From positions 52,929,878 through 52,993,877 of the forward strand of contig NC_057926.1 in assembly GCF_018873765.1 (NCBI RefSeq): a stretch of DNA of 64,000 nucleotides. Reading direction: 5' to 3'. Every line of letters begins with the position of its first letter. Position 1 is the stretch's first letter. Of this stretch, positions 11,534-52,060 are shown piece by piece. This DNA comes from Telopea speciosissima. Its lineage: Eukaryota; Streptophyta; Magnoliopsida; Proteales; Proteaceae. Both the position numbers and the translations under genes were made by a program. The notes beneath the pieces were generated by a model. The model saw only the letters and a list, made by a program, of their open reading frames with translations. It made no database searches and was not told where the DNA came from.

Positions 11534-11640
11534 ATGGGTCTTTATCCCCTCCAGTTCCCTGCCCAGCCCAGTTTCCGAATTCCTCTAACAAGGGGGATGG
11601 AATGACCATCGGGCTGGGAATGGGAGGAGATAATTTTTCC
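11534..11640. mobile_element. hairpin MITE of the TTTATCC family (short copy)
   Basis: Left arm GGGTCTTTATCCCCTCCAGT, right arm ending GGAGATAATTTTTCC. It matches the element at 13966-14145 along the left arm (CTCTAACAAGG, CCAGTT) but has a much shorter right arm, so it looks internally deleted. Confidence 0.5.
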
Positions 11641-11764
11641 ACTTCTGATTGGACGATTTTGCCCCTAATTTTTTTTTTACAGTTTTACCCTCTATACCGT
11701 TCCACCAATGCCTGAATCTTAACTATTACGTCATTGGTCATTGGTCAGGTCGCCGGAAGAAGTC

Positions 11765-11914
11765 ATGCCGGAAGTCGACGGCAGGTCAGTGCCGCAGTAC
11801 CACGATCTACTTAGATTCAGGGAACTTTTTGAGCGTCTGATTAGGATCCAGTACAGTGTGATACCAATCCCATGGTTAATAAGCAACAAAAAAAAATTGG
11901 CACAAAATATATGA
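11765..11914 (+). other. 49-codon open frame, unidentified
   Basis: An ATG opens MPEVDGRSVPQYHDLLRFRE followed by LFERLIRIQYSVIPIPWLIS and a short lysine-rich tail before TGA. The first half is charged and amphipathic like a real protein fragment, and the local composition (GCCGGAAG, GTCGACGGC) is less AT-rich than its surroundings. No family recognised. It converges on the MKK gene with about 180 bp between stops. It may be an exon relic or chance. Confidence 0.2.
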
Positions 11915-12095
11915 AAGAATAAATTTAGTTAATTTTTGCTAATCTCTTTGTTATTGGCCGAAAAAGGAAATGAAAACTGTACACAAAATTCCTATCCAGA
12001 AAGAATAAAAAAGAAAAGATCCCCATTTAGTATGTACAGGTACCGTCGCCGGAGATTTCAAAAATCGATTACGATTACGAGGATTTAATTTCTGA

Positions 12096-13088: not shown

Positions 13089-13160
13089 CTTGTGCTGGTG
13101 GTGACTGGTGAGAGAGTGGTGGAAGCTTTTTCGGGAAGACAGGTGGGAGTGGGAAGGAGT

Positions 13161-13746: not shown

Positions 13747-13965
13747 GCACATTTGTAACTATCACTCTCGTCAATATATTAATTTTTTCTTTTTCCAAAA
13801 AAAAAAAATAGAGAGTTTTTTCTTTAGTGCGAATGTAAGGGAGAAGTATATACCTACTTCCTATTTACGAGAGTTCGGATCATCTTGGTGTACATCCAGA
13901 GTAATTAACATGACATACAATGGTAGATACATGTCTTAATAAATACTTATTTCGAAGGAGAGGGA

Positions 13966-14145
13966 GAGGATCTTTATCCCCTCCAGTTCTCTGCCCGACC
14001 TAGTTCCCCAGTGCCTCTAACAAGGTTTGGGGGTGCAATGACCACCCTACCCTTGCCCAAACACTTTGCCCGGGTTGGGTCCACCCCCCTTATTAGAGGC
14101 ACTGGGGAACTGGGTCGAGCAAGGAACTGCAGGGGATAATTTTTC
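13966..14145. mobile_element. hairpin MITE of the TTTATCC family
   Basis: Ends GAGGATCTTTATCCCCTCC and GGGGATAATTTTTC, with long pairing arms (AGTTCCCCAGTGCCTCTAA on the left, its complement on the right). Flanks GGAGAGGGA and GGAGAGGGT (8 of 9) look like a 9-bp target duplication, as made by Mutator-type transposases. Confidence 0.7.
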
Positions 14146-16371
14146 GGAGAGGGTTAGCAATATTTTTTTAAATTTAAACTTTTTCTATTTTTATGTGAGC
14201 ATAAATTCTGGCTCGCTTGTTAAACTCATTCATCTTTCTCCTTTGTTTTCTGAACATAAAACTTGCTTCATCTTTCGACTCTCTCAATTTCGGGCTAGGC
14301 CTGGTAGAACCGACCGAGCTTGCCCGACTAAATCCTGGTCCAACCCGGTTTGTTTACTTAAGCCCGACACATTTAGTAATTGGGCGGTCCCAGTGTGGGG
14401 TCCTAGCCCATCGGGCCTGTCGGGCGCCCGACCGACCAGACCCTTTGTCTTTTTTTAATTCATTCTCAAAGGTGCATGAACCCAACCATCAAGTTCAGAA
14501 AGGCAAACATTGCTTGTTCCAACATGATTCATCCCATGAAATCCTATTTTTGATTTTCATCATACCGTTAAACCCATCTGTTGTTTTAATCCATTTACCA
14601 ACCATTCATGAATTAATATCAACCAAACATAAAAAAAATAAAAACTCGTGGAACATCCATATTTTAGTTCTTATATACCCCAAATTTATTGGTAGTCATT
14701 CAAACATAGATCCATCTTCTATGATACTTCTCTGAATGCATTTTTTTTCATTCATTTCTATTCTTGCATCTCAGAGAAATTTTTATTCATAATTATTAAG
14801 GTTGTGCCGTTTAAAGCCTGTTTAAATTTAACCAGGCTCATAGCTCAGTTTAACAGCGTTTAAGGTCCAATTACACTAGACCGATTATAGCCCGAAGCCC
14901 AACCTAGCCTGATCGGGCCCGACCAGGCCCGACCTGAATACTTAAACGGACGATCACGGTGCAGTCTTTAAGGACCGTGAGGCCCGATCGAACCCGACCG
15001 AGCCCGACTGGTTGACACCCATATACTGTTCTTCGATACCCTCCACACACCATGTGAAGGCCTCAAAATTCCTTAACTATGTCTGAAAGAAAACCACCCC
15101 TTTCTTTTTGTACCATTGGTCACATATTGATATCAGAGACGTATTATCTAAGGAAACTTAAGTGCCAAGGGTAAAAGTAATGTTTTACTCCTCCTCGAGT
15201 TGGGATCAGCTCCCCACATGGGGTGCCACCCCACATGGATCTCATCATATCAATTTCAGAATCTTTATAATGTAGCTTCCTTTAGGTTAGATTTGGATGC
15301 TTAGAATGAAAAATAAGACAAAAATCATGATGGTGCAATGATTGATTTATGTATCTATCTCTCTTCAAGTTCTTTTCTTTTTTGAAAATTTCTTTCCTCT
15401 TCTTGGTATCCAAAGATTCCAAACATAGCTTGAAAAATCTGGAATAGATGGATGATTTCTTTCTATCAAAGAACGATACCTAAATGTAAGGGTGTCAATC
15501 GATTCAGTTTTGATTCGATTCAAGATACAAAATGCATAAACAAAATCGAATTGAACTGACTGTAGGAACACATTTAAAAAAAACCGGATCAATTCAATTT
15601 TGTTTTTTTATTAGTGTTTTGTATTTGGTTCCTTATTTGATTTGAATTCAGTTTCATAGCCGGTTTAGTTCCTATTTTAGCATTCATGAATCATCCACAA
15701 ATATAATTCACCAATAAATTATGTAGAGTATTAAGCCTCCAACTGTTAATACAGATTCTGTTTTTGGCTTTCATGAAAAACCCCATAAAGACATTTTACT
15801 AATAAATATTATCTGATACTAAGCCTCCAACTATTAATATAGATTATGATTTAGGTAAACTTGTTAAATGTTAGTACTTGAATCAATTATAAATTGTACC
15901 CAAAAAAGAATAAAAAAAACTAAGATCTAGGGAAATGAACCATTCTATTTTATGCTTCAACGGGTATTCTTTCACAATCTTATATGTTATAATCTTATTC
16001 TACTGTAAGCATGTTTCCTTGAAATTTTATGATCATTTGTGAATATCATCTTATTCGGTTCTAAATGAACGGTTTTGGGGCCTGAGCGTTTAGCTTAGAT
16101 GGTGCTGTCAGTGTTAGGTCTGGTCGGAAGACGCTGGAGGTTAGGTGAAGAAAAAAATTCAACGGTTTCATCCTTGAAATCAAAGCGAATCAAACTGAGA
16201 AATGTTTCTTATGCTGTCAAGTGCAGATTCAAATCTAAGTCCTCTAACATAATGAGCCGTGGGATCCACATTAACATTCTCTCTCATAGTTTGACCATGT
16301 GAATCCCATGTAGATGATACCATTCTCTAAAATCTCATTGGTGTGGTGTGGAGCTTCCTTCTTACACTACC
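14146..16371. other. intergenic with family-name repeats
   Basis: No gene seen. Stretches at about 14285-14445 and 14815-15025 are GC-rich and full of GCCCGACC/CGGGCC words, the second ending GGTTGACACCC. 15483-15700 begins AGGGTGTCAATCGATTC. All resemble degenerate hAT-like non-autonomous elements. At 15700-15855 a roughly 100-bp segment with AAGCCTCCAACT and TTAATA.AGATT words occurs twice in tandem. Confidence 0.45.
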
Positions 16372-17225: not shown

Positions 17226-17230
17226 CTACC

Positions 17231-20650: not shown

Positions 20651-20838
20651 GAGAAGGATTCTGTTCAGCACCTTGCTCGGGCTGCATGTGCAGTGCTAGA
20701 CTTGGTGAGGCATGAAAAGACCATCTCACCCCTGCTCGGCAAGGCGCTCGGACAGGGATGAGGCAGTCTTTTCATGCCTCACTGTGTCCGATGCTGCACG
20801 TACAGCCCGGGCAGTTGGGTGTTGGACAAGAGCCGAGT
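20651..20838. mobile_element. hairpin MITE flanked by 12-bp direct repeats
   Basis: Arms pair through GCTCGGGCTGCATGTGCAG and GAGGCATGAAAAGAC with their complements around a loop near 20730-20760. CCCACCTTTACC occurs exactly 200 bp apart at 20639-20650 and 20839-20850, consistent with a target duplication of 9 bases or more. Inverted ends are imperfect (GAGAAGGATTCTGTT against ACTCGGCTCTTGTCC). Confidence 0.65.
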
Positions 20839-20890
20839 CCCACCTTTACCAATGAGCATACGCTGAGTATTCTTTATGGGTCGACATTCT

Positions 20891-21062: not shown

Positions 21063-21148
21063 ACTGAGATCAGCAATTTCAACAAATTTAAAACCAATCC
21101 ATAAAAAGAAGACAAAATATTCTTTTCACGGCTGAGAGGGCGGAGGTC

Positions 21149-21289
21149 GGATCGTATCCTTGTACAAGTACTATCCAATGCCCTCTAGGGCCAGCCATAT
21201 GGAATACATTGTGGGATCCATAGTGGGAGTGGATTCCATGTGACTGGCCCTAAAGGGCATTAGACGGTACTTGTACAAGGACATGATCC
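21149..21289. mobile_element. hairpin MITE, GGATCGTATCC ends
   Basis: GGATCGTATCCTTGTACAAG at the left pairs with CTTGTACAAGGACATGATCC at the right. Pairing continues through CAATGCCCTCTAGGGCCAG almost to the centre. Ends resemble the TTTATCC hairpin family, but the stem is different. No clear target duplication. Confidence 0.65.
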
Positions 21290-22044
21290 GTGCTCGGGAG
21301 GGCTTCCTATATGGTCCCCATTATTTTGCCACGTAAAAGATGATGTGATAATTGGATTTTATATCTAAAATTAATCTCACAAGTTCTCTCAATATACATT
21401 TGCATCACTCTTTAGCTAATGCTACTTTGCTACCCTTTGTTTTCAGTTTTTTTTTTTCCCGCTTTTCTTTCATTATTTTATTTTTAATTAATTTCCAAAG
21501 ATTGATATTTTATGTTTCCAGTTCCGTTTATGATTTAATAAGACAATTATTATCTTAATCCCTAAGCAAAAGTCACTTATAGAGGAGATGAGATGAGTAT
21601 ATTAATTTAGGTCTATTAGTCTTTGCTCACAGATATGTAAAATAATTGCTAAATGCTTGATAAATAGATTAAAACCATCTCTTAATAGTCTTATTAGTCC
21701 TTAAAAGTGCTTTTTTAGTTACTCGAGCAATTTCTGATAACATTTTTATGGTGCATGAGATTTTATATTAGATGTGTCATAGTAAAAGTAAAAGTGGTCT
21801 GCTGATGCTTAAGCTTGATCTCAATAAGACTTATGAAGAGCCTAACCTAAAGGCTCTTTAAACGTTAATGGGTAAAAATATGTAAAAGGAAAAAAGTTCT
21901 ACTATGCCATAAAAAAAAATAAAAAAGGCCGGAACCTAACTAAAAGCTGCTTATAAAGAGCAGAACAGTGCCCTTTCCTATTTTGATATCAATTTTTCTC
22001 TTCCTTCATGTGTTCGAATCATTTTAAAACAATGTTGGCTTTTT
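21290..22044. other. intergenic, nothing identified
   Basis: AT-rich, no gene or recognisable repeat. Confidence 0.5.
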
Positions 22045-22200: not shown

Positions 22201-22451
22201 TAAAAAAATAAAGAAAAGAACTACGGTGAAATCATTTTCTATAGAAAAAGTTTGATACAATGTCAATTCAAAAGGGAAAGTGTACATTTTCCTAAATATC
22301 TTTGTTCATGAGAGAGATATGTCATAAATGCCCCTCTCTTTTTGTTAGTTTCCAAATGAAATTTTCTTATTGGTCTAAAACTGCAGTTGGGCAGTGTAGG
22401 GAACTCTATCCCTATTTCCTATAAAACTAAAATCATAGACAGCTCTCCAAT

Positions 22452-22620
22452 GGATCCGGCTCCTCTCCACGGAGTTCAGTGCCTAGGGCACGCCCAAGGG
22501 GCATCCAAGGATTGAACTGTGCCACACACATCTCGACGCACACCTAGAGATGTATGCGACATAACCCAACGACTGGATGCCCCATGGGCATATTGGGCTC
22601 TTGGAGAGGAGCACAATCCC
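22452..22620. mobile_element. hairpin MITE, GGATCCGGCTCCTCTCC family (in duplication A)
   Basis: Left GGATCCGGCTCCTCTCCACG, right GGAGAGGAGCACAATCCC on the plus strand, giving inverted ends, with an inner pair around CACACATCTCGA/TAGAGATGTATGCG. Its duplicate is at 46850-47019 and an independent relative is at 38861-39025. Confidence 0.6.
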
Positions 22621-24629
22621 TCTCCAACATGGGGAATCTTGTCAGTTTAGCACTTTAAGAGCATGACCATGGCATGGATATATGTATTCCTTATGCTATA
22701 CAATATAAATATTTATCACATGAACTTCACTTTCTTTGTCTTTAGTACCCAAAACGCAAATCCACACCAACCTTATTAAAGTTATGAGTGGATTCAATGT
22801 ACTCTTATTGTTTACATGTTCTTAACAATTCACATTGATTCTTGTTTTTATTTTATCTTATCAATGATGTATATCTGTCTGAATCTTCTAACAACTCCTA
22901 CTCTTAGGCTATGTTTGGAATGCAAGAAATTGATTAAAAAAAAAAAAATAAATCATATGAAGACAGTCCATGATGAAGTTTGATGGTTGTTGATATTAAA
23001 TGTATGGGCAAGAGATCATTATTTGGGTTTGTAGCGCTTGCACCAACACATGGGCCAATGAGAGCGCATGCAAAGCCATGAACATATGCCATTTTTTGTT
23101 TTCATGGGAAGAGGGGGGGGTAAGATGGTACTTTCACACGCTCCTATGTGCATCTGTGTTTAAGTGCAAAGTCAAACGATTAGGTAACGTTCTTTTTCCC
23201 CAAATTTATTTTCCCTTCTGAGATTTTTTTTCTTCTTCATATCTATTTTGTCATGTGGATAGCTTGGTTTGGTCGTTATGACTGTTCGATAAATGGTTTT
23301 TTTTTTGGGATTCACCAATAGTCAAATTTGATGACCTATCACCCATCTGCTCCTTTCCTCACTCGGCAAAAGTTTGAGTAGTTTCAAACACCAGTCCCCA
23401 AACTGGTCATTTAAACCGAGTTGATTGGAACCGTCGACCTCGGTTCAAAAAGAACCAATTCATTGAAATTGATTGAATTTGCTTGAAATAGGCATCAACA
23501 AGAGAAAACCAATCGATTTTAATGAAATCAAAACCATATAATTGAATCTTGTTTTTTTCGATTTATGCGTTTATGGGAATAAACAGCAGGTTGGGTTGGG
23601 TGGGCCCAAATTGGCCCATTTAGAGGTTTGGTGCCCGATCCAGCACAAGAGTATGGGCTTTAGCACTCCCTAGTGCCCACAGGATGTTAAGTTAGGGGTT
23701 TACATCATGTTATTGGTGAAGCCTGATCTTAGTTTTAATCTGGAAAATATTATTGATTTTTTGACGAATTATTTCATCTTCAAAACACGTGTGATCGACC
23801 AAAACGTGCATACGTCAGTCCCGAAGACACTGACTCCTGAAGAGTTGTTTTCTAGACCAGATTTGATAATACAATTCTGACTATAACAATTCATATTCAT
23901 TTTCCATAATGCCTTGCTCTGAACCTTATCCTGTTGGCTCATAATGAAGATGGTATCATAATCGACTCAAATACCCCAAACATTTCCCTGACCCAACCTT
24001 TGCTTTTTTCAAACTTACTAACTCTATACAAACTGTATGGCAAGCAACAACCACCATTTGCTATTCTAAGAGTACAGTGTCTAAATTACCATATTACCCA
24101 TTACTCTGCTTTTCCAATGTAGCCAAATGTGAATACCTATTGATGAATTTTCAATTCCTTTTTGGTGTCAAATTCAACTGGAAGTGCTTTTTCTTAATAA
24201 AATACTTGAAAGATAATTGCTTTAAGCCCTTGTTTGGTTTGATGTGATCCAAGAACAATGAAATGGTAAACTCAAAAAATATTAAATACAGAAACTAAAA
24301 TTTGCTTTCCACGATAAGTTACAAAAAAATCATTTGAGGTGGCATGACCAAGTTCAATATAGGACTTCGGATGCTCCAGTATCTGTCATAGTCTATAATT
24401 TTGATCCACAACATCAACTTCCTTTCGTACTGTGGAATTGGTCATGTGTAGTAGGGGTGCAATAGGGTTGGATTGGGCCGGATTTTATATTGAAACTTGA
24501 AATAGATAATAAACAAACCAAAATAGGTCATTATTTGTCCTTCAAATAACAAAACCAGAAAGCAATATGCTTTGAAACCAGTAATACATACAAGAGAACT
24601 GGAAGATGATTTCAGATCCCCAATATTGC
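22621..24629. other. intergenic within duplication A
   Basis: Holds a third R1 repeat (about 23005-23215) and otherwise unassigned AT-rich DNA that is conserved in copy B (47031-48760). No gene found on either strand. Confidence 0.55.
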
Positions 24630-25761
24630 TCAAGCTTGAGTCTTTGTCCAAACCAATCCATTCTCATTTATCCAATGACAAACTTCTATTAGGCCTGGGT
24701 CAGAACCCAACAACTTAAAAGCAATATGGTTTGGATTCCAAGTTGATGTGTCATAATGGCATGCCATGATCACATGATTCACTTTCTTCTGAGCATGTAT
24801 ATCAATTACATATACTTTTACTTTCTGTAAAATATGGCAATAATAGACTTGAAATGGGAATGGCTGACTATGACATAATACTGGCGGTTCAAAGAGGTTT
24901 CCATATATGAGTTTTATGGCTCCAATTGTGACATTCTCATAAGATCCTTCAATGCTCTCAGTACTCCATACACATACATGGTGCCCTAATTTTTCGACAA
25001 TAAAATCGATGAGATCTTCACCGGAAGTCATGCAGGTGCTCTGCTCATCTCGAATGGGACTCTTGTCACATATCTTGATGGTGTCTTCAATATACCCATC
25101 CATGTTTGATTGATCCACCACACCAAACATTTTCTTCAATTCCTCAATCTTTCCAAAGGAAAATGGGAGTTTTGATGCGAGAGATCGCGGTAAGAATGAT
25201 TTATATGACATTAGGTCCCTTAGATCAGGGATAGACATGAAACCTCCCTCTTTAACCATTGACTCGCGAAAAAATGGCAATCCTCCTTGGCTAGCAGCTG
25301 ACATGGGTGTTTCATTTGGAAGGTGTTCATAAACCACTTTGATAGCACTCCACTGAGCAATTGGTGGCAGGGTTGTGTCATCCATTGTCTTCTTTACCAA
25401 CGCATTTGTAGAACAAGCAATATTAGCCTGTTTACAGAATGAACGCAAGTGTGAAGCCAATTCATTTTCTTTCATAAGTTTCATAAACATTGTTGCCTGA
25501 TGGAGGGTTAATGGAGAAGCCTTTGCAACTAACCAATGTGGAGGGTGTGAAAGACCAATATGCTCTTTCCAATACTGTGAGAAGGCATTTTCAGCTTGAA
25601 AACCCTGCAATTTCATGGGAGAAAATTAACAACCAAGTAAGAGATAAAATAGGAACAAATCACAACCACTTTGAAATGAATGGATAATGGAAAAACATCA
25701 TTTTTCTTACACTAAAGTATGCTACTATCAGAATTCCAAGCAACAAAATGTGATATGTCAT
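24630..25761 (-). CDS. BURP-domain protein, PG1-beta (polygalacturonase non-catalytic subunit) type, without the FxxY repeats
   Basis: Two exons, 25711-25761 and 24630-25604, with a 106-bp intron (GTAAGA...TTGCAG), give 341 residues. Exon 1 is a signal peptide (MTYHILLLGILIVAYFS). Exon 2 continues GFQAENAFSQYWKEHI and LVAKASPL, the N-terminal signature of tomato PG1-beta-like wall proteins. The BURP domain starts at FFRESM (residue 128) and ends with the spaced pairs CH261-x10-CH273-x24-CH299-x25-CH326. PG1-beta proteins act in the cell wall on pectin and polygalacturonase. Odd: the long array of FxxYGxxG-like units between the N-terminal region and the BURP domain is replaced by about 48 residues, so the protein is little more than half the usual length. 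An ATG at 25616 inside the intron is not used in this model. This is the only intact copy; its duplicate is 49565-50696. Confidence 0.9.
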
Positions 25762-26344
25762 GGTGGAACTGAAACAGGGAACCAAATGAATTGCAAAGAT
25801 GGGTATGTTGCATGGAGAGAGGGTGTTTGATTTTACATAGAGGGTAATTTTGGTTAGGTGATGGTAGAAGTGAAGGAAGGGGGATGGGGGAGAGGGTGGA
25901 AGAAGAACTGGGATAAGGGGTAATTTTGGTATTAAAAGCATGAGAGGAGTAATGGAGATAATTTAAGGAGGCTATGGTTTAAGACATAAGGGACTTCTCC
26001 CTCTATCTTTGGGTTAATTGTTGTGATTTAGTTAATCTCACTTTCACAAACAATTTTCGAAGTACTAATAGCACACAAGAAAAAACAAATTGGTCTAAAT
26101 CAGTTAACTTTACTGTATAAAAGAATTCTATATAACTGAACTAATTTTTGCCCGATGGAGCTGTGAGGTGGTGTTTCTAACGATTGCATAACGAAATACA
26201 ATTTAGATAGACCACTTATCAAATTTCGAAGTCACATTTATTGCTTACACCCCCTTTATTGGCATTTCCCTTCTGTTTTTAGCTATCCTTTTGTTTTAAC
26301 TATTTCCACAAAAGTTTGACTTTCTAGTTATTCCTTAGGAGTTC

Positions 26345-26706
26345 ATGCAACGCTGGTGGGCGACTGACAGTTATCTAAGGTTCATACAGTAACGCATCAC
26401 CCACTGTTACAGAGAGGGTAATATCCTAGCAGATGCTCTTGTGAATCGAGCAGCCCGCCTTAAAATTTCAGAGAAGTGGAATGACTCTCCAAATTTCATA
26501 GCCCATACAACTTCTTGGGAAGCTCTAGGAAGACCATATTACCGCTTCTTTTGATCTGTTGTGAGGGTTTCATACCCGAACTTTTTTGTTTGTAATTGGC
26601 TGAAAATACTTTTGAGTTTGAGCATCTGATTTTATTCTCTTTTTGTATCTTTCTTTATACCATCAATATATACTTGCTGATCTTCTAGCAAAAAAAAAAA
26701 ATAAAA
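26345..26706 (+). mobile_element. L1-type LINE 3' end, 5'-truncated
   Basis: Codons from 26402 read HCYREGNILADALVNRAAR and on to a stop at 26552-26554, the end of the RNase H domain of plant L1 ORF2 (YREGN.xADALA motif). A 3' UTR follows, ending TCTTCTAGC and an A-run (26690-26701). Only the last part of ORF2 remains. The matching place in duplication B lacks it, so it inserted after the duplication. Confidence 0.8.
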
Positions 26707-26937
26707 AATTTAAATCATAATTTGAGGAATCCCAATTCCTATTGATTTCTACAACCCTCTTTTGTATTGCACTGGTTTTATGTTTGATATTAATTTTTAA
26801 TCATTGTTTCCTTATTTTAGTCAATAAATTTGTAAAACAAAATCAATGAAATTTACTTTTGGTAGCGAGATCTCCAAGTTTATTGAATAAAAAATTCCAA
26901 ACTCATAGATTTAGAGATATCTTAATTTGCTGCTTCT

Positions 26938-26954
26938 ATTATCAAAAAAAAAAA
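26938..26954 (+). mobile_element. 17-bp poly-A-tailed micro-insertion
   Basis: ATTATC followed by an A-run is flanked by ATTTGC(T/C)GCTTCT at 26925-26937 and 26955-26967. Duplication B at about 53925 has the site once and without the A-run, so this is a datable insertion with a 13-bp target duplication. Confidence 0.7.
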
Positions 26955-27284
26955 ATTTGCCGCTTCTTGATTCCAAACCGCTATTAACCGAGTCATGTAG
27001 GAACCGATCCGATCTCCGATTCCATTCTCTTGAACTATATTTTAAAGCTGTATTTTGCCACGTGGTCAAGTCCAATAGGCACTAAACTTAACATTTAAGT
27101 AGGGTACCTTGAGCCCTTCCCTTACCTGATTTACCACATGATAGATATTAGGGAAATGGAGGGAACTATTGCACTAACTAGGCAGCTTAGTTAGAACTTC
27201 AGATTTGTGGAATTGATCTAAGTCACTAAAATTTGTTCATAACTTAACTTGACAGACCTAGCCAACCATTAAAAATGCAAGGAT

Positions 27285-27412
27285 AGGCTCTTCTAAGTCT
27301 ATCTCTTTCCTCTCCATATGAAAAGACACATATGTCTCCTTATTTTGAGGAGGAGAGAGATAGACATATGAGAGTGTTGGCGTAGGCCACACTGCTCGAT
27401 AGAAAACTTCTT
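27285..27412. mobile_element. hairpin element, GTCTATCTCTYTCCTC family
   Basis: GTCTATCTCTTTCCTCTCC pairs with GGAGGAGAGAGATAGAC, followed by GTAGGCCACACTGCTCGA and GAAAAC. A relative with the same layout is at 46572-46708, at the edge of duplication B and not at the equivalent place, so this is a mobile family. Confidence 0.55.
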
Positions 27413-38347: not shown

Positions 38348-38350
<3 letters not shown>

Positions 38351-38860: not shown

Positions 38861-39025
38861 TTGGCGTCGGGCTCCTCTCTAGGGACCCCAGCACCTAGGG
38901 AGTGCCTAGGGCTGCTGGGCATGTGAGGATGAGTGCCTGGCATGAATCCCGATGCGTTGAACGCTGTTGGATGCCTCCCTAGCCACTCCTTGGGCGCTGG
39001 GCTCCCTGGAGAAGAGCCGGATCCC
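38861..39025. mobile_element. hairpin MITE, GGATCCGGCTC family, independent copy
   Basis: The right end, read on the minus strand, is GGGGATCCGGCTCTTCTCCA followed by GGGAGCCCAGCGCCCAAG, close to the left end of the elements at 22452 and 46850. The left end carries the paired GGGCTCCTCTCTAGGGACCC. It lies outside both duplications, so the family moved on its own. Confidence 0.5.
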
Positions 39026-39759
39026 CTAGCTTGACCTTGATTGATTTTGATCTAGTTGGTCTTGATTTTTGCTAGGGTGGAGTTGTCCCTGATTGACCCT
39101 GGCTATCATCCTAGCAAATGTGCAAAATTTTATAGTCGTCAACTCACAATAAAACTTGAGTCCATGGTGTCCACCCCCTATAAAAGAAAAAATGCAAAAC
39201 AAACTCCAAAATTTTATACTCGCATCATGGCCATGCTTGTTTGACGGAGAAAAATGAAAAAGGTAAAAAGGGGTGCGCAACTTCTTCCTGCAACGTACCA
39301 CAAATATGACTTTATGAGTGTTTGATTAGTTGAGGTGGAAAAATTATCGGACAAGTTCATTAAATGTATTTATTCTTGTGTGGTGATGCGGCAAGTGGCA
39401 ACCTACTTTTTCCCATCCAGTCACTTTCAAAATGGAAAAGTTCATTTTGCCTGCTGTGGCAGTATAAGCTAAAATTTGAGGGATTTTACTCCCTTCCATT
39501 TCCAGATCCATTATTGCTTGTTATTTCCCCCCTCCAAAGTGCGACATGTGACGGTCTTAAATCTAACGGTCCTAAATCATTCTCTTATTTTTAAGTAATG
39601 AGCTAACTATGGTTACTCCAACCCAGAGTCTAACCCGAGTCAAGTTTAACCAAACCAACATTAAACCCATGGTTAACTCAAACCGAAAACCCAACCCTAA
39701 TCTCATCGCCTCTCTCTCCTATTGCCCTCATTGAGAGACGTAGTCACTTGAAGAACTAT

Positions 39760-39945
39760 CGAACGGAGAAGCTGCCGGCTGCAACTTCTCCGTTTTCCGG
39801 CGACAGCCCACCTCTTTGTGCCGTTGCGACTTCAGGCGACGGAGCAACAAACGCTTTTTCAGGCGATGGCACACCTGATTCTTGCCGCTGCAACTTCAGG
39901 CGACGGAGCAACGAACGCGTTTTCGGGCGACGACGCCCAAAAACT
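39760..39945. repeat. 64-bp minisatellite inside the TIR element
   Basis: CTTCAGGCGACGGAGCAAC(A/G)AACGC-type units start near 39829 and 39893, 64 bp apart, with a third more diverged unit before them (CTGCAACTTC, TTTTCCGGCGACAG). GC content is well above the surroundings. It reads openly in several frames, but the repetition explains that. Confidence 0.7.
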
Positions 39946-40356
39946 GGTAGTAGCAAAGAAACATAAGAAACCCAGACATCCAGAAAACGGAGGTTTTGAT
40001 TGCTGATAGAGGGTGAACAATTTACATAACTTTCTCGCATTCTGAAATAAAGATTCCATTCTTTTTTTTTTTTGGTTTGGGGGGTCTGGGTGAAAGGAAA
40101 TGGGGGATGAAGAGATATAGAAACACAACCTGTGATGGATCCAAAACAAATGAACCGAAGAATGACACTGGAATGTACAAGCAGCCTTATTCTGCAATTC
40201 TATCCACCCCGAAGGCCCAAATACAAAGGGGTGAGATCGAGCCTATTAATTAACTTCCCAAATAATCAAATATTGAAAGAGATCAAAAGCTGGATAAGAT
40301 TTTGTATCAAACGAATCAGGTCATTAAACTTTGTTTCAGAAACGACTTTGGTTGCA

Positions 40357-41264
40357 ATGGCGAGCAGCGATGTGCTTCCACAGATTTCTGTACCGGAGAT
40401 GAATGAGTTCTTTGATACTTCGTCACCGGATTCTCAAGAACTACATGTCCTTGCCGTTGACGATAGTCTCGTCGATCGTAAAGTTATCGAACGGTTGCTT
40501 AAGATCTCCTCTTGTAAAGGTCAGTTTCCAATTCTTGTTATTCAAATTAGACTCCTCTTTCTCTCTCTCATTTTTTGTTTCTTCAACATATTCTTCATTT
40601 GTTGTTCTCTGAACCAATGTGGTGGAATTTCTTCAGTGACGGCAGTAGATAGTGGAACCAGAGCTCGAGAAGAACTCTGAGGGATTCAATGTAAGTAAGA
40701 GAAGTTTCATTGATTTTTTTTTTTAAATTTCCAATTTTGATTGATTTACAGATTTTCTTACGGTGACTTGTTTTTCAGAATTTGAAGGTCAATATGATAA
40801 TAACGGATTACAGTATGCCTGGAATGAACGGATGTGAGTTGCTTAAGAAAATCAAGGTTCGATTTTTCTCTCAAAATTTCCAAACATTTCTGATCTCTGA
40901 GATTTTCATTTCTGAGTTTATTTTGACAAATATTTTCCAAATAGGAATCTTCGACAGGTGTTTGGAGGAAAGAGCAGAGGAATTTATTGTGAAACCTATA
41001 AAGCTTTCAGACGTGAAACGATTAAAAAATAGAGTTGGTAGTGGAGGTGAAGCCGATGCGAGATGGATCCAACATAGTCACAAGAGAAAATTGCCAGATG
41101 CCACTACCACAGATCTATCATCATTATCTTCATGTCCTTCATCAGCAAGGAATAAGAAAAACAGAAGATACCACAGTTGCTTCTACTCCTTGAGCTTCTT
41201 CGATCAACATTCGGAGCAGCAGCGATATGGAGACCATCATCGGACAGAACCCAACAAAAACTGA
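40357..41264 (+). pseudogene. type-A response regulator (ARR-like), captured and broken
   Basis: Exon 1 (40357-40519) encodes MASSDVLPQ...ELHVLAVDDSLVDRKVIERL, with the acidic pair of a receiver domain. Exon 2 (40637-40690) has VTAVDSGTRA. Exon 3 (40779-40856) has NMIITDYSMPGMNGCELLKK, with the phosphoacceptor Asp. Exon 4 (from 40945) has CLEERAEEFIVKPIKLSDVK, with the conserved Lys. Type-A regulators are phosphorelay proteins that damp cytokinin signalling. Two internal deletions break it. In exon 2 the stretch after SGTRA is lost and the frame runs to TGA at 40678-40680. In exon 4 about 20 codons after ESS, including the expected PVVIMSSEN strand, are missing, perhaps with an intron. Introns are kept, so genomic DNA was captured, not cDNA. 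No second intact copy is in the window. Confidence 0.82.
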
Positions 41265-41785
41265 AGAAGATGAAAATAACCGATTAGGGTTCGAGAAGTG
41301 AAGCGTAGCCATCTCTGCAACTTGTCTGTCAAACCACAGGTGTTAGAGAAGCAAACAAAGGACTAAACCCAAGCTACCAAGTAATTGAGATGGGAACCAG
41401 CCGTGAGTCACCGCTGTCTTTCCGGCATTTGAGGCCAGCGTTTTGGTCGTTGGAGCCTCACGAGTGTTCGCCGGCAGCTTCTCCGTTCGATAGTTCTTCA
41501 GGTGACTTCGTCTCTCAACGAGGGAAATAGGAGAGAGGCGATGAGATTAGGGTTAGGCTTTCGGTTTGAGTTAATCATGGGTTTAATGTTGATTTAGTTA
41601 AAGTTGACTCGGGTTAGACTCTGGGTTGAGTAACCATAATTAGTTTATTACTTAAAAGTAAGAGAATGATTTAGGACTTTTAGATTTATGATCGCCAGGT
41701 ATCGTACTCTGAAGGGGAAAATAACAAGAAATAATGGATCTGAAAATGAAAAGAAGTAAAATTCAAATTTGAGTGTCAAATACGC

Positions 41786-41967
41786 GGATCTTTATCCTCT
41801 CAATTACACTGCCGGTACTTGACTCAAGTACATCTTACAGAGGAGGCAGAAATGACTATCCTACCCCTTATCCTCTCAATTACACTGCCCGAGGTGGGGT
41901 TCACCTCCCTCTATTAGATGTACTTGACGATCAAGTACGGACAGTGTAATTGAGAGAATAAAAATTC
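41786..41967. mobile_element. 182-bp hairpin MITE nested in the right arm of the TIR element
   Basis: Ends GGATCTTTATCCTCTCAATT and, on the other strand, GAATTTTTATTCTCTCAATT, with a perfect 9-bp target duplication CAAATACGC at 41777-41785 and 41968-41976. Removing it restores the inverted arm of the host element, so it came later. Nine bases indicates a Mutator-type transposase. Confidence 0.9.
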
Positions 41968-42006
41968 CAAATACGCTGTCACATGGCAGTTGTAAACTTT
42001 CCCGTA

Positions 42007-43670
42007 TTGCCTGCTCTAGTGCTCTGGCAGTATAAGCATTCAGCTACCCCCATTTCTAGAGATTATTACCAAAAGATTTAAAATAGACTAGAAAAGGATC
42101 AAGCTCTAATTTTTTCAGTTTAATCACTAATCTTCATTCAAAACCAATTATCCAACCAAACAACAAAAGTGTTGAATCTAACTTGATCAGCCAAGCTAGC
42201 CTGGTCCAGTTTTAGAATCGCGTAGGAAATACAACCCAACAAAAGAAAGTACACAAAATTTGTACAGTTATGGTTCCAAGTGAAATTGTATAATGAATTA
42301 GTAATTTTTTTATTAAAAGACGTTGTAAATTGTTATTTTGGCTTGATTAGAATTTTTTTAATTAAAATCTTTTTTGTCTGGATTTTGTGCACAAGTAGAG
42401 TAAGGGCACTAAAGAGGTTAACTTTAATTAAATAGATCAGGTTGCGTGGTCCCTACATCAGCAAGAGGCCAATGGGAGTGCATGCATAGACATCCATGGG
42501 GAGGGCGGGGTTGTCATTTCACTGCTTCCGGGCACGTTCTTTTTCCCCATTTACTATTAGCCCATTGGGAAAAAAGGTTGGCTGGTCGCAAGAAAATGGC
42601 TAGATTAGGAGGAGAATTATAATTAATGATCTTTTGATCACAATTATACATGATAATTTAGTTTAAGAGGTTGTAAATGGATCTCTAATTTTAAGTTAAT
42701 TTCTTAGATTGCTAGATTGGTTAAACCTAATAATAAACTCATTTTGGATTAGATCAACAATACATAAAAGGTCCTAAACACGCATCATGCTCTAAGCCAA
42801 AAAATTGTTTTTAAATTGATAAATGTTCTCCCTTATCAAAATGAATCAAAGAATGTTATCAACAAATTAATTTGTATTAATATTGACTCTAAAATTAGCC
42901 AGACTCATATTGACTCCGCCAAACTAGATCGGACTTAGGTGGGCGAATTGACTAGCCCGTTTCCCCTGAATGATTAAAATGATCGTCTCATCCCGCCCCA
43001 TGTGTCTAGGCGCAACCTGCGTTGCTATGCACTCTCAGACAAAAACCATCGTCCCATAAATAAATAAACCAAACAATTGTATAATGCTGAGTCACTGTTT
43101 AGTCACTAGTAGCTAGTTAGTTCTAGTTTAGTAAATTAAATCATGGTTTACGAAGAAAACGTGTCCATCTATTATAATAAATATTCAGTTATAAAAAATG
43201 GCAGGGGATACTAATATTTCTTTTTTTTGGTGAAAAGGGGATACTAATATTTCAATCATCCCATCATATGGAGTCTTTTTCATTAATATTAATGAAGATT
43301 AACATCAAGTCGTCAAGTGGCAAACAAAATATTACCATATCAGACTTAAGATGTGACTGATTAAGAAGCTAAATGATGTAGATTATATCACAATTACAAA
43401 TTTTATTACATTATTTGGTTTAATTACCTAATTTAATGTACGATATGGTCCTAATAATGTGGAATGCATGGAAAATGCACGATACATGGCTGACATATTT
43501 TATTAAGAGTTGGGATAAGGCTTAGTTTTTTTTTTGGGTTAATGAAAGTGTAATCACACAAACCACATACCAATCCCAAAAGGTTAATCGACTTTTTTAG
43601 GATTGTGGAATGATAGATATACACAATATACATCATACTCATACACCCGATGTGGGATTAAAGCCACACA
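42007..43670. other. intergenic with one R1 repeat
   Basis: 42428-42556 matches repeat family R1 (GGCCAATGGGAGTGCATGCA, ATGGGGAGGGCGGGGTTGTC). At 43204-43252 GGGGATACTAATATTTC is duplicated around a TTTTTTTTGGTGAAAA insert (a minus-strand poly-A tail). 43528-43595 is the poly-T plus TGTAATCACACAAACCACA block. No gene. Confidence 0.5.
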
Positions 43671-43808
43671 TGAAGTTTTATCTTCTGCTGTTCGTTGCCC
43701 GAACAGCACAGTGTTGTCCCTCCACATGGAGGGCAAAATGACGACTTAACCTCGTTTGAGGGGACAGCAGGTGTTGTTCGGGCAACGAACAACAGAGGAT
43801 AACGATCC
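43671..43808. mobile_element. 138-bp hairpin MITE of the TTTATCC family
   Basis: TGAAGTTTTATCTTCTGCTG at the left and GGATCGTTATCCTCTGTTG (minus strand) at the right. The arms share GTTCGTTGCCCGAACA. A perfect 9-bp target duplication AGCCACACA lies at 43662-43670 and 43809-43817. Confidence 0.9.
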
Positions 43809-44629
43809 AGCCACACACCCTTTTTTTTATTTTATGAAAATGTAATCACACAAACCACACATCAATCCCAAAAGATTAACCGACTTTTTGGGATAAAGCT
43901 TAGTTGAGTTGAATTAAAGTTTTGACTTTTGCTTAAAAGGAGATTTACGAAATGTTTTTGTTGTCTTTTTGAAACTCCAACATTTTTAATAAAGAATCAT
44001 AATAATTTATGAAGGAAGCCCATAGGAAAGAGCCTTTGTAATTTATTAATAAATATATGTCTCCTCTCTTCTTTGTAGCACGTGGATGGATGATGTGGCC
44101 AATTTAAATCCATCCATCCATTGGTAATTAATTCTTTAGCTCGGTGACGTGTTTAATTAATGTCATAATCAAATCACTAATCTTAATACTTATATTGTAT
44201 TGGGTCTTCCCTTATCATAAGTATTTCATCTACTTTTAGAGGTAAAACCAATTCAAACCGACCAATTGACACCCCAAGCTATTTGAGTTCTCATGTGAAG
44301 ATTCAAGAGTTATGACATAATGACTTTTTTTAACCCTAAAAAACAACACAACATGACAAAGAAATAGATGCAACAAACGCCCAACAAAGATACACACACC
44401 CCTAGCTAGGTCCATGCGTGTAACCTAATCTTTGCTATAAATATATTAGCCAAAAATGGGGAAATAAAAACGATGAGTTGGTGCTAGATGTTGATTAACA
44501 CCAGTTGTGTTCTCAACATGGATTAGCCTGGTATATTAATGTTTGACTAAGAAGCTATGACATTAAATTAAGCTGTGTGTTTTGGGAGAAAATTATATTT
44601 TTAGATTAAAAAACAAAACAAAGAACGTA
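43809..44629. other. intergenic, nothing certain
   Basis: Begins with another poly-T plus AATCACACAAACCACACAT block (43820-43895). The rest is AT-rich without a gene. Confidence 0.45.
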
Positions 44630-46472: not shown

Positions 46473-46476
<4 letters not shown>

Positions 46477-46708: not shown

Positions 46709-46849
46709 TTCCCTTAAATAAAGAGGCAACCAACCAACTTAAGGTTTGATTATTGGCACTAATGTGACTGATCCAAAACTGCAGCTGGGCAGTGTAGGGA
46801 ACTCTATCCCCATTTCCTATAAAACTAAAATCATAGACAGCTCTCCAAT

Positions 46850-47019
46850 GGATCCGGCTCCTCTCCAGGGAGTTCAGCGCCCAGGGCACGCCCAGGGGGC
46901 ATCTAAGGGTTGGGCTGTTCCGCACACATCTCGATGCATACCTAAAGATGTGTGCGGCACAGCCCAACAACTGGATACCCTCTGAACATGTTGGGCTCCC
47001 TGGGGAGAAGCTCAATCCC
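46850..47019. mobile_element. hairpin MITE, GGATCCGGCTCCTCTCC family (in duplication B)
   Basis: Duplicate of 22452-22620, with inner pair CACACATCTCGATGCATACC / AAGATGTGTGCGGCAC. Confidence 0.6.
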
Positions 47020-48764
47020 TCTCCAACATGGGGAATCTTGTCAGTTTAGCACTTTAAGAGCATGAGCATAGCGTGGATATATGTATTCCTTATGCTATAC
47101 AATACAAATATTTATCACTTGAACTTCACTTTCTTTGTCTTTAGTACCCAAAACACGAATCCACACCAACCTTACTAAAGTTATGAGTGAATTCAATGTA
47201 CTCTTACTGTGCACATGTTCTGAACAATTCACATTGATTCTTGTTTTTATTTTATCTTTTCAATGATGTATATCTGTCTGAATCTTCTAACAACTCCTAC
47301 TCTTAGGCTATGTTTGGAATGCAAGAAATTGATTAAAAAAAAAAAAAAAAACATATTAAGACAGGCCATAATGAAGTTTGATGGTTGTTGACATTACATT
47401 TATGGGCAAGAGATCATTATCTGGGTCTGTAGCGCTTGCACCAACACATGGGCCACTGAGAGCACACGCAAAGCCATGAACATATGCCGTTTCCAAGGGA
47501 AGGGGGGGGGGGGTAAGGTGGTACTTTCACATGCTTCTATGCGCATCCGTGTTTAGGTGCAAAGTCAAACGACTAGGTAACATTCTTTTTCCCCAAGTTT
47601 ATTTTCCCTTATGAGATTTTTTTTCTTCTTCACATCTATTTTGTCATGTGGATAGCTTGGTTTGGTCGCTATGACTGTTCGATAAATGGTTTTTTTTTTG
47701 GGATTTGCCAATAGTCAAATTTGGTGAACCATCACCCATCTGCTCCTTTTCTCACTCGGCAAAAGTTTGAGTAGTTTCAAACACCAGTTCTCAAACTGGT
47801 CAGTTAAACCAAGTTGATTGGAACCATCGACCTCGGTTCAAAAAGAACCAATTCATTGAAATTGATTGAATTTGCTTGAAATAGGCATAAACAAGAGAAA
47901 ACCAATCGATTTCAATGAAATCAAAACCATATAATTGAATCTTGTTTTTTTCGATTTGTGCGTTTATGGGAATAAACAGCAGGTTGGGTTAGGTGGGCCC
48001 AAATTGGCCCATTTAGAGGTTTGGTGCCTGATCCAGCACAAGAGTATGGGCTTTAGTACTCCCTAGTGCCCACAAGATGTTAAGTTAGAGGTATTATTGG
48101 TGAAGCCTGATCTCAGTTTTAATCTACAAAGTATTCCTGATTTTTCGGCAGATTATTTCACCTTCGAAACACGCGTAATCGAACAAAAAGTGCATACGTC
48201 AGTCCGGAAGACACTGACTCCTGAAGAGTTGTTTTCTAGACCAGATTTGATAATACAATTCTGACTATAACCACTCATATTCATTTTCCATATTGCCTTG
48301 CTCTGAACCTTATCCTGTTGGCTCATAATGAAGATGGTATCATAGTCGACTCAAACACCCCAAACATTTCCCTGACCCAACCTTTGCTTTTCTCAAACTT
48401 ACTAATTATATGTAAAATGTATGGCAAGCAACAACCACCATTTGCTATTCTAAGAGTACATTGTCTAAATTACCATATTACCCATCACTCTGCTTTTCCA
48501 ATGTTGCCAAATGTGAATGCCTATTGATGAATTTTCAATTCCTTTTTGGTGTCAAATTCAACTGGAAGTGCTTTTTCTTATTAAAATTCTTAAAAGATAA
48601 TTTCATTAAGCCCTCGTTTGGTTTGATGTGATCCAAGAACAATTAAATGGTAAACTCAAAAAGTATTAAATACAGAAACTAAAATTTGCTTTCCACGAGA
48701 TAGGTTACGAGAAAGTCATTTAAAGTGGTATGACCATATTTAATATAGGCCTTCGGATGCTATA
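47020..48764. other. intergenic within duplication B
   Basis: Matches 22621-24380. Includes the R1 repeat copy at 47405-47605 with a longer G-run. No gene. Confidence 0.55.
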
Positions 48765-48967
48765 GTAAGGAGTAGTGATTTGATTCAGATTAAAAGAACT
48801 AAAAGAACTAGGGGCAGACCTAAAATACCTTAGGAGAAGTAGTGAAGAAAGACATGCATAGCTTAGACCTTGTATCAATGACCTCGAATAGAATTGATTA
48901 GAGGGCAAAGATCCATGTAGTCGACCCCATTTAATTGGAATAAGACTGTGTTGTTGTTGTTGTTGTT
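48765..48967 (+). mobile_element. RTE-type LINE 3' end, 5'-truncated, with (TTG)n tail
   Basis: Reads GGGGCAGACCTAAAATACCT, GAAAGACATGCATAGCTTAG, CATGTAGTCGACCCCATTTA and ends in GTTGTTGTTGTTGTTGTT. This is the end of the plant RTE reverse transcriptase region (KKDMHSLDL-like and W-x-AKI-x-x-VDP words) with its simple-repeat tail. Duplication A lacks it: the flanking CTTCGGATGCT and TATAATTTTGATCCA are close together at 24366-24410. The next 300 bp to 49300 belong to the same inserted block and are unassigned. Confidence 0.7.
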
Positions 48968-49564
48968 AGTGTTTATTTCCATTCTAACTAAATGGGGCTT
49001 AATGGAGCCAACAAAAAAATAAATCTACATGAAGTGACTCTACGTACAACTTAAAAGAAACAACTCAACTCAACCTTAAACCAACTATATGCGGTCACCT
49101 ACATCAACCTCTTTTCTTCAATCAGCCCTATTCAAAGACAATAATGAATCTATATACATCAAGACATAACTACCGAATGAATCCAAACCCATAGCATTCC
49201 CATATGATCGTAGACTGATTCTTCATGCCGATCGATCTTTCTGCAATTATAATCACGCAACTAAGTTGATTGGTGTGTATGTAATGGTTGCTCTGCAATA
49301 GTATATAATTTTGATCCATAACATCAGCTTCCTTTCGTACTGAAATGGTCATGTGTAGTAGGTGTGCAACAGGATTGGTCCGTGTTTTCTTTTGATTTTA
49401 GGTTGTCATCTATTATGCTACACAGATGAAGAAAAAACTATATGGAAACTTGAAATACATAATAAGCAAGCCAAAATAGGTCATTATTTGTCTTTCAAAT
49501 AACAAAACCAGTAACATATAATGCATACAAGAGAACTTGAAGATGATCTGATCTTCAATATTGC

Positions 49565-50696
49565 TCAAGTTAGAGTCTTTGTCCAAACCAATCCATTCTC
49601 ATTTATCCAATGACAAACTTCTATTAGGCCTGGGCCAAAACCCAATAGCTTAAAAGCAATATGGTTTGGATTCCAAGTCGAAGTGTCATAATGGCATGTC
49701 ATGATCACATGATTCACTTTCTTCCTAGCTTGTATTTCAACTACATAGACTTTTACTTTCGGTAAAATATGGCAATAATAGACTTGAAATGGGAAAGGCT
49801 GGCTATGACATAATGCTGGTGGTTCAGAGAAATTTCCATATATGAGTTTCACAGTTCCAATTGTGACATTCTCATAAGATCCTTCAATGCTCTCAGTACT
49901 CCATACACATACATGATGCCCTAATTTTTCGACAATAAAATCGATGAGATCTTCAGCGGAAGTCACACAAGTGCTTTGTTCATCTCGAATGGGACTTTTC
50001 TCACATATCTTGAGGGTGTCTTGAATATAATCATCCATGTTTGATTCATCCACTACACCAAACATTTTCTTCAATTCCTTAATCTTTGCAAAGGAAAATG
50101 GGATTTCTGATGCCAAAGATCGCGGTAAGAATGATTTATATGACATTAGGTCCCTTAGATCAGGGATAGACATGAAACCTCCCTCTTTCACCATTGACTC
50201 GCGAAAAAATGGCAATTCCGCTTGGCTGGCAGCTGACAAGGGTGTTTCATTTGGAAGATCTTCATAAACAACTTTGATTGCATTCCACTGGGCAATTGGT
50301 GGCAGGGTTGTATCGTCCATTGTCTTCTTCACTAAAGAATTTGTAGAACAAGCAACATTGGCCTATTTACAGAATGAAGGCAAGTGGAAAGCCAATTCAT
50401 TTTCCTCCATGAGTTTCATAAAAAAGGCTGCCTGATGGAGGTTTAATGGAGAAGCCTTTGCAACTAACCAATTTGGAGGGTGTGAAAGACTAATATGCTC
50501 TTCCCAATATTGTGAGAAGGCATTTTTAGCTTGGAAACCCTGCAATTTCATGGGGAAAAATTAACAACCAAAATAAGAAAGATAAAATAGGAATAAACAA
50601 CCACATTGGAATGAATGGATAATGGAAAACCATCATTTTTCTTACTCTAAAATATGCTATTATAAGAAATCCAAGCAAAAAAATGGAATGTGTCAT
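49565..50696 (-). pseudogene. BURP-domain gene, copy B, with one in-frame stop
   Basis: Same structure as 24630-25761: exon 1 50646-50696 (MTHSIFLLGFLIIAYFR), a 106-bp intron, and exon 2 49565-50539 of the same 975-nt length. All four CH pairs are kept at the C-terminus with the same spacing. Codon 76 is TAG (50363-50365) where copy A has CAG (SFCK-Q-AN), so translation would stop after 75 residues, before the BURP domain. Apart from this C-to-T change the frame is fully open. The protein differs from copy A at roughly one residue in ten, many of them non-conservative (for example ASEIPFSF for ASKLPFSF). A recent loss, an allele, or a base error are all possible. Confidence 0.85.
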
Positions 50697-50819
50697 AGTG
50701 GAACTGAAACAAAGAACTGAATGAGTTGCAGAGTTGGGTATGTGCCTTTATGGGAATGAGAATGAGTTGGGTTTGTTGCATGGAGGGGGGGGGGTTGTAT
50801 TTGATTTTATATAGAGGGA

Positions 50820-52060
50820 AAATTTTAAAATACCAATATAAAAAAAAGGGAAGTTTTTGTTAGTACCTTCTTATATGGCTAAATGTATTCTGTAATTTTT
50901 CATTGGGCAAGAGATCTCTACTTGATCGTACAGTCTCTACACAAGCGTTTGGGCCAAGGGTAAGCATGGCTGGGTATTTACTCAGGGACAAAGACGTCAT
51001 CTCATGCTATCCTGTGAGAGGGCATACAAAACACCACCAAGTAGAGATCTTTTCCACTTTCCTATATTACCATATGAAAAAGTGAAAAACTTCTCTTCTA
51101 TGACTACTATTAAAGGTTTAGAAAAACTTCGAACAGCCTTTTGACACTCAAATTTTAAAATACCAAAATAACCCTTTAATGTGTAATTCTTAATTCTTTT
51201 GGGGTAAACTGTAATTCTTAATTGTTGCAGTCTAAGAAAAGCTTTGAGAACTTGACCATTAATGGGATACATGAGTACATGAGCCAAACCCCGGATGTTG
51301 TCAGCATCTAACATGATGATAGGTATTAAAATCCTCTGCAATACCGGCGGGGAGGCAGTGCACATCTGATGGCACAACAGAGGCCATGTGTGCCATGTGT
51401 GCCACTTGGCCTCTGCTGTGCCGTCAGATGTGCATTGTCGCCCCGCCGGTACTACAGAGGATCCTGGTCCAAAATCGAAAAAAGGTCACTAAAGAATTTT
51501 GTTACCTTTCCATTCAAATAATTGGAGAGAAAACCAAAGGGTCGAAGACCTGGAGGAATTTGGCTCATCTTTTGCGTTATCTTTGTTACTGGTGGATCCA
51601 TGCGGATTTGGGGGCACCCGCGGTAACTCAAGGAAATTTTTTATGGTTGTATGGGTATTTTGGTAAATTACTTTTATATAATTTTACTATAAATTTGTAG
51701 TGAGAGATCTTTATCTGAATTCAATCTGTGAGAAGTGTAAGGACAAATGGATGTAACCTTTTTCTCCATTGATAGTGAAGCAGATTCCGTTTCACTGTGG
51801 ACGTAGGCAATCTTGTCAAACCACGTAAATCCTGGTGTTTATTGTGTGATTGGTTGTTTGCGATTTTCATTTTTTTCTACATCGTTTTAAATAATCAATA
51901 TTTCTACACAATTGATTCCCTTTGGTCATGGTTCAACAAGCTGCAATATATAAGTTGTGAGCAAATTAGATTCCCTTTGGTGAAATGTCCATGAAGTGCT
52001 TCAAAGTCGATGCCTGATGATACAAAAATCAGAAGGGACAACGATTTTGTGCCTGCCGAG
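50820..52060. other. 1.2-kb insertion unique to duplication B
   Basis: Copy A goes directly from the region upstream of BURP exon 1 (about 25835) to GGGTAATTTTGG. Copy B has this block between. It holds hairpin arms AGAGATCTCTACTTG (50910) / CAAGTAGAGATCT (51038) and a second hairpin at 51322-51470. Its ends (AAAATTTTAAAATACC, GGTAATTTTGGTATG) share AT-rich words, but no clean inverted ends or target copies were found. Confidence 0.5.
51322..51470. mobile_element. hairpin MITE, ATCCTCTG ends
   Basis: AATCCTCTGCAATACCGGCG at the left and GGATCCTCTGTAGTACCGGC (minus strand) at the right. The arms pair through GCACATCTGA.GGCACA and AGAGGCCA to the centre (GTGTGCCATGTGTGCCA). The outer ends resemble the TTTATCC hairpin family, the stem does not. 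Confidence 0.6.

Follow-up and report, generated by a model that had tools for sequence, protein, structure and literature searches.

The analysed window, by which the whole stretch of 64,000 nucleotides is meant (C11:52929878-52993877, part of the 823-Mb plant assembly of Telopea speciosissima), carries ABC transporter, BURP-domain and protein-kinase frames of plant DNA and a number of short hairpin elements, which are the subject of this study. The original prediction listed six such elements, at 11534, 13966, 21149, 41786, 43671 and 51322, with like ends and different stems. Inverted-repeat elements were found at or within a few bases of all six positions. Four of them almost certainly represent one large family of hairpin miniature inverted-repeat transposable elements (MITEs), mostly about 130-190 bp in length. 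These four are as follows.

11536..11640, plus strand: main family, subfamily C; right arm shortened; target copy matching at 7 of 9 bases (11527-11535 / 11641-11649, ACTTTGGAT/ACTTCTGAT).
13966..14145, plus strand: main family, subfamily C; GGATC end at 13968; target copy matching at 8 of 9 bases (13957-13965 / 14146-14154, GGAGAGGGA/GGAGAGGGT); loop motif CAATGACCACCCTACCCT at 14036-14053.
41786..41967, plus strand: main family, subfamily A; exact 9-bp target copy CAAATACGC (41777-41785 / 41968-41976); loop motif at 41850-41867.
43671..43808, minus strand: main family, subfamily B; loop partly missing; exact target copy AGCCACACA (43662-43670 / 43809-43817); empty site at locus L018.

The lengths of the four elements were 105-182 bp, with arms of 52 bp in 13966 and 56 bp in 41786. 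The hairpin scan was passed by 13966, 21149, 41786 and 51322 (4 of the 6), with 0 passes in two order-1 random sequences, and 43671 was a self-palindrome in the self-comparison of the window. To this extent the predicted near-perfect inverted repeats were confirmed; in the case of 11536, the ends match, the right arm is shortened and the element was missed by the scan. The two perfect 9-bp target copies (41786 and 43671) and the one with 8 of 9 bases (13966) were found as predicted. The sharing of ends applies to 11536, 13966, 41786 and 43671, and not to 21149, which has other ends 6 bp further out, or to 51322, the ends of which are related but different.

Two repeat arrangements were observed next to these elements. 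A 69-bp direct repeat (43529-43597 and 43821-43889, 87%) stands on both sides of hairpin 43671. Hairpin 41786 lies just outside a pair of inverted repeats of about 305-311 bp (39469-39779 / 41470-41773, 87% alike) around the frame 40767-41264, which encodes a partial response-regulator receiver domain; the pair (39469-41773) is possibly a gene-carrying element with long terminal inverted repeats (TIRs) or an inverted duplication.

The stems had been described as unrelated, apart from those of 11534 and 13966, and this did not hold. The interiors of 13968 and 41786, compared after cutting 17 bp from each end, aligned end to end (z = 18, 0 of 200 shuffles). In the window-only comparison, no significant stem link was detected for 43671, 21149 or 51322; 43671 became linked to the main cluster after genome copies were added. 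The stems of 11536, 13966, 41786 and 43671 align once intermediate copies are included, an outcome which the original prediction had itself named as speaking against its view.

The ends were, as expected from the prediction, commoner than by chance. Genome-wide, GGATCNTTATCCYCT with at most 1 mismatch resulted in 7,623 matches vs 982 for the reversed pattern, and 25 end-like sites (at most 3 mismatches) were present in the window in comparison with a shuffle mean of 10.7 and maximum of 18 (100 shuffles). The end-seeded sample consisted of 100 exact-end loci, all in the first 28 Mb of one contig and taken in listing order. For the clustering, 84 of these, each with a hairpin or a partner end, were used and the other 16 were omitted; 16 bases were cut from each end, and the threshold was 50.04 (p about 1e-5 per pair, single-base shuffles). 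With the ends trimmed in this way, 76 of the 84 loci fell into a single linked cluster together with 11536, 13966, 41786, 43671 and a further hairpin at 20651, while L002, L026 and L129 remained single.

About six subfamilies, the names of which (A-F) were assigned by eye, were distinguished: A (41786), B (43671), C (11536 and 13966), D, E and F. Their layout is common: the end TTATCCYCT is followed, about 24 bases in, by an anchor near CTGCCCG and then by an inner block (TCTAATAG or TCTCATAG, and CTCACATG in B) and the loop. When the consensus arms were compared, with 15 end bases excluded and single-base shuffles, the subfamilies formed a chain with z values of 6-8 for A-D, 5-6 for D-C, 5-11 for C-F, 6.5 and 3.8 for F-E, and, for E-B, 4.8 on the left and 0.2 on the right, where the consensus is shortened. 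Subfamily B is also tied to E-type copies by scores of up to 125 (threshold 50). Six of the ten loci not used in defining the subfamilies (L121-L130) scored 169 or more against one subfamily, and L121, L126, L128 and L129 scored 49 or less against the defined ones. We conclude that the different stems are subfamilies of one stem and that the family is old.

Two small groups were observed beside the subfamilies. Group H (L052, L121, L128) has the left and right ends of subfamily A and no alignable stem or loop; CTGCCC is present in its arms (right arm of L121, both arms of L128). Group G (two copies, L086 and L126) combines the main ends with a different loop, and the link of 51322 to it was weak (score 50.5 vs threshold 50.04).

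The hairpins are real mobile elements. A partner end together with a 9-bp target copy within one mismatch was detected in 40 of the first 90 end-seeded loci (19 exact), whereas the five flank-swap controls resulted in 0, 0, 2, 0 and 2 within one mismatch and 0, 0, 0, 0 and 2 exact; this check had been proposed together with the prediction and turned out positive. The extra copies of subfamily B had a target copy within one mismatch in 5 of 10 cases. The joined flanks of 43671 match L018, its empty site, across the junction (152 bp, 80%), with 28 of the 152 bp on the side at which the L018 locus runs out. L041 is inserted into the loop of a second family member, from which its target copy ACCCTACCC derives, and its joined flanks align to L051 (178 bp, 83%). 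A 708-bp stretch, L026, with both family ends, an exact AT-rich target copy TATTTAATA and no long stem is possibly a nested insertion; a shorter 291-bp stretch of it was used in the clustering. Short length, high copy number, terminal inverted repeats, target-site duplication and empty sites, by which MITEs are recognised, were all found.

The two arms of an element have changed in step. In the pairwise comparison of 44 chosen copies, arms were realigned over about 44 sites and differences were counted as mismatches plus gaps. The own-arm differences were 1 in A, 3 in D, 4 in B, 4 in E, 5 in C and 10 in F, and those between same-side arms of different subfamilies were 7 to 24. In five of the six subfamilies, the own two arms were more alike than the same-side arms of any two subfamilies compared; in an arm comparison taken from a multiple alignment, the same-side right arms of C-F, C-E and F-E were near the own-arm values. 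The stem covariation was counted in alignment A1, which holds 34 rows of a 39-row alignment, L040, L073, L074, L086 and L087 being left out; the 39 rows in turn omit E11, L001, L038, L078, L082 and five other-family hairpins. Stem cells changed on both sides numbered 240 in it, vs a shuffle value of 108 (0 of 500) and 74 or fewer after sliding, and 83.6% of the stem cells were paired vs 69.1%, counts of change that are rough because stem blocks are out of register. In comparison with this alignment, pairwise realignment resulted in much more similar arms. The idea that the stem blocks change several times faster than the loop and the ends do, at a transition/transversion ratio (0.44) like that of unrelated DNA, was rejected, the C and D stems being out of register.

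The outermost bases differ from the arms in this respect. The left tip is GGATC(T/G/A) and the right tip mostly GGAAAA or GAATTT, and the ends, taken earlier for an inverted pair, are not simple inverted copies. In the outer 6-bp tips, zero cells were changed on both sides, the fifth base paired in 0 of 34 sequences, and the unseeded right end copied the left end in 0 of 34. With subfamily B (query L058, best 40 of 495 candidates scored), 28 of 40 copies had a reverse-strand self-match of exactly 7-180 of 187, and in ten others it went further, into one tip or both. The corresponding match in the 51322 family was 10-141 of 149 in 35 of 39 (best 40 of 755 scored); the 21149 family was mixed, many self-matches reaching the last bases (best 40 of 415 scored).

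The inner arms of single loci could be typed on both sides in 60 of the 90 loci, at least one arm being untyped in the other 30. The left/right combinations were rr 35, lr 12, ll 7, bb 3, and rl, lb and br one each (Fisher p 0.0016 for the l/r table). Subfamily F is of the TCTCATA type in the left arm and of the TCTAATA type in the right one; both arms are of the left type in E, of the right type in C, and of a type of its own in B. The left arm of F was nearest to the E arms (7 and 7 differences) and its right arm to the C arms (7 and 8), the own arms differing by 10. The right side of E and B carries an inverted copy of the left loop sequence (GTTAAGTCGTCATTT or close), and A, C, D and F mostly have GGTCCACC there.

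The explanation to which we give a probability of roughly three in four is that of one old MITE family, moved probably by a Mutator-like transposase, in which the arms are rewritten from each other. The mobility, the single family, the arms in step and the unequal tips were observed, and the rewriting and the transposase are what we infer. The probable transposase would act on the element ends, and one arm would be rewritten from the other inside a copy that later amplifies. The stems would remain near-perfect inverted repeats because of this rewriting, and the outermost 6 bp or so would lie outside the rewritten stretch and stay unlike at the two ends. On the simplest account, an F-like state would have become symmetric either way as one arm was overwritten with the sequence of its partner, in E and B together with part of the loop; which way the change went we infer from an unrooted comparison. 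Such copying between arms inside an element is, taken alone, somewhat favoured. Hairpin-templated repair, template switching and gene conversion at a break are candidate routes between which the present data would not distinguish; lagging-strand hairpins with template switching are proposed as a process at palindromes in the available part of PMC7999016. The family probably falls into the Mutator-like superfamily because of its 9-bp target copies, a target-site duplication of about 9 bp being given as a feature of that superfamily in the available part of PMC3169594. Matches to the domain of Mutator-like elements (MULEs) were abundant, with 150 scored of 827 candidates.

Several points weigh against this explanation. 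Eight of the 84 loci stayed outside the main cluster, and the consensus arms of B are weakly linked except to the left arm of E. Subfamily F is an exception to the in-step change, its own arms (10) being no closer than the nearest same-side comparisons (7, 8, 10). Pairs with a change on both sides numbered 31 vs 28.2, a weak excess reached by 62 of 500 shuffles, and the excess of further pair types, 76 vs 68.7, was also weak (8 of 500); moreover, some stem blocks of the 34-sequence alignment are out of register between subfamilies. Counts over copies refer to non-independent events, the copies being related, and the constancy of the left end says little because this end was preset by the search seed. 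As for an autonomous partner, none of the 30 best among the 150 scored MULE-domain matches had a family end at a distance of up to about 1.5 kb, and of the four scored matches on C1 below 28.2 Mb none lay within 60 kb of a listed exact end (by eye).

The strong covariation along the stem would also be expected if the hairpin were selected as DNA or RNA, compensatory mutation keeping the arms complementary with no copying between them. We consider this unlikely. Copies with unlike inner arms exist (the 12 lr loci), and inserted copies drift from the consensus similarly in the stem blocks (0.08-0.11) and in the loop (0.11). In addition, the block mirrored in E and B includes loop sequence and is therefore hard to reach by single compensating changes.

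Somewhat more doubtful is the first of two models offered by the original prediction, in which the ends repeatedly take up unrelated DNA that is copied fold-back into new stems. Group H, with subfamily A ends and no alignable stem or loop, and group G, with main ends and a different loop, would fit it, as would the stem blocks that were near-unrelated between subfamilies in the first alignment (transitions/transversions 0.44). However, that ratio came at least partly from the out-of-register alignment, and the realigned arms were significantly similar in most subfamily pairs; the A-D differences were still mostly transversions after realignment. The persistence of CTGCCC in the H arms also argues against uptake. 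Both-strand matches were obtained with 40 (B), 40 (21149) and 39 (51322) of the best 40 scored copies, queries included, and no single-arm source was seen among them, bar one copy with no reported reverse match, a weak test because only the best 40 of 495, 415 and 755 were scored and a single-arm source would rank lower. Of this model the fold-back copying is supported in a restricted form, as copying of the element's own other arm, and an outside source was not seen in the weak test just given. The second model, in which any hairpin with these ends can be moved by a transposase, fails in its premise for four elements and has some support from group H. Both are weakened because both rest on unrelated stems.

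Convergence, in which several unrelated hairpin families would share short ends as the binding site of one transposase, is improbable: 51322 and 21149 each form a family of their own and the ends of 22452/38864 are of a third kind, but interiors link 76 of 84 end-seeded loci after end trimming and a loop close to AAATGACYAYCCTACCCCTGCCCGAACACACTGCCCG, with changes, recurs in all six main subfamilies, so that it is refuted for the main cluster, H and G standing apart from that verdict.

Beyond a single family with arms rewritten from each other, it is conceivable, though we doubt it, that the only fixed part of an element is the unequal tips of about 6 bp with TTATCCYCT, the stem being renewed by fold-back copying from the element itself and the ends being transferred occasionally to some unrelated palindrome, for which H and G may be examples. 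If this were true, the hairpin would be required as a shape and not as a sequence.

The other hairpins of the window are as follows.

20651..20841, plus strand: absent from the original prediction; linked to the main cluster by a best score of 57.5 (threshold 50.0); contains the loop motif (2 mismatches); flanked by an 11-bp repeat, CCACCTTTACC.
21143..21295, plus strand: unrelated high-copy MITE family (415 first-look candidates); ends GAG..CGGATC (GAGGTCGGATCG / GAGCACGGATCA); target copy matching at 7 of 9 bases.
22452..22619, plus strand: hairpin MITE with ends GGATCCGGCTCCTCTC; target copy matching at 8 of 9 bases; no link to the main cluster.
38864..39024, plus strand: related to 46850 (0 of 200 shuffles) and, less strongly, also to 22452 (2 of 200); singleton at the stricter clustering threshold.
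46850..47018, plus strand: second copy of 22452-22619, with an identical target copy; not part of the clustering set.
51322..51470, plus strand: separate high-copy MITE family (755 first-look candidates); ends GG..ATCCTCTG (GGTATTAAAATCC / GGACCAGGATCC).

Membership of 21149 in the main family was ruled out, as its copies and their target duplications put the ends 6 bp further out, in a different sequence; exact target copies were present in L139 and L140 (judged by eye). In the flanks of 51322 no target copy was found. It is a full-length member: each of the best 40 scored copies (of 755) spans at least positions 7-147 of 149, and the other 39 are 88-93% identical to it.

The hairpin 22452/46850 is common to both copies of a segmental duplication (22371-36480 / 46769-64000), 46850 lying in the second half, and ABC transporter and BURP-like frames are present in both copies. 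In a stretch absent from the first copy lies a MITE at 52431-52783 with an exact target copy TTTTATTTA; together with 54798-55189 it represents another MITE family with ends near GGGTAAATTACACGTCACCCC, and it contains AAATGACTATTTTATCC, which resembles the main-family loop motif. A motif near AAATGACYAYYYTACCCY was observed inside hairpins of several families (14036, 20715, 41850, 43736, 52644, 54920). With at most 3 mismatches it occurred 12 times in the window in comparison with a shuffle mean of 1.6 and a largest value of 6, the motif being derived from these same elements and 4 of the 12 matches being two duplicated pairs.

The comparison with known systems refers to the available parts of the cited sources. 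Tm1, a Mutator/Foldback element of root-knot nematodes (PMC3169594), shares the 9-bp target copies, the MITE-like members and asymmetric 7-bp outer motifs on otherwise inverted arms. In contrast to the present family, Tm1 has arms in which a 13-15-bp repeat occurs in varying number, and one of its members is known to encode a transposase. No tandem repeat was detected in 41786-41967, 43671-43808 and the L047 element, the three elements scanned (Tandem Repeats Finder, score 30), and no coding member of the main hairpin family was found; short repeated motifs were seen by eye in some D and C arms. Of the Foldback/Tm1-like traits, asymmetric tips with symmetric inner arms are thus present and tandem-repeat arms are not. 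For Galileo of Drosophila (PMC3573991), recombination and conversion of inverted repeats, TIR extension from internal sequence and chimeras are proposed to result in new subfamilies; it belongs to another superfamily (P), and its inverted repeats are at least 600 bp. Plant Mutator-derived MITEs (review PMC12595863) are likewise small and non-autonomous, with Mutator as a named parent superfamily, whereas arms in step with fixed unequal tips are not described in the part available. MULEs with multiple long TIRs (PMC3310237) are also from plants and have remodelled inverted ends, and acquired sequence can, as the authors note, be integrated into their extended TIRs; they differ in that the change is a duplication of TIRs and not a mirrored one of the stem. 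The bacterial REP repeats tagged with GTAG/CGTC (PMC3733652) have a constant unpaired end tag and subfamilies with alternative complementary stem residues, but they are bacterial and 20-40 bp long. Galileo and Tm1 together foreshadow most of what is described here, namely arm conversion leading to subfamilies and unequal tips outside matching arms. In the titles and abstract openings covered, which are incomplete, neither this family nor a mirrored change of the stem in any plant MITE was found described, and such absence means little.

The elements represent an ordinary large MITE family with an instructive change of the stem, and no established view is overturned. With thousands of end matches and at least six subfamilies, the family is a natural data set on how the arms of hairpin MITEs stay alike while changing, which bears also on the question of which element parts a transposase needs. 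For transposon annotators it is a warning that like-ended hairpin MITEs can look unrelated when few copies are compared.

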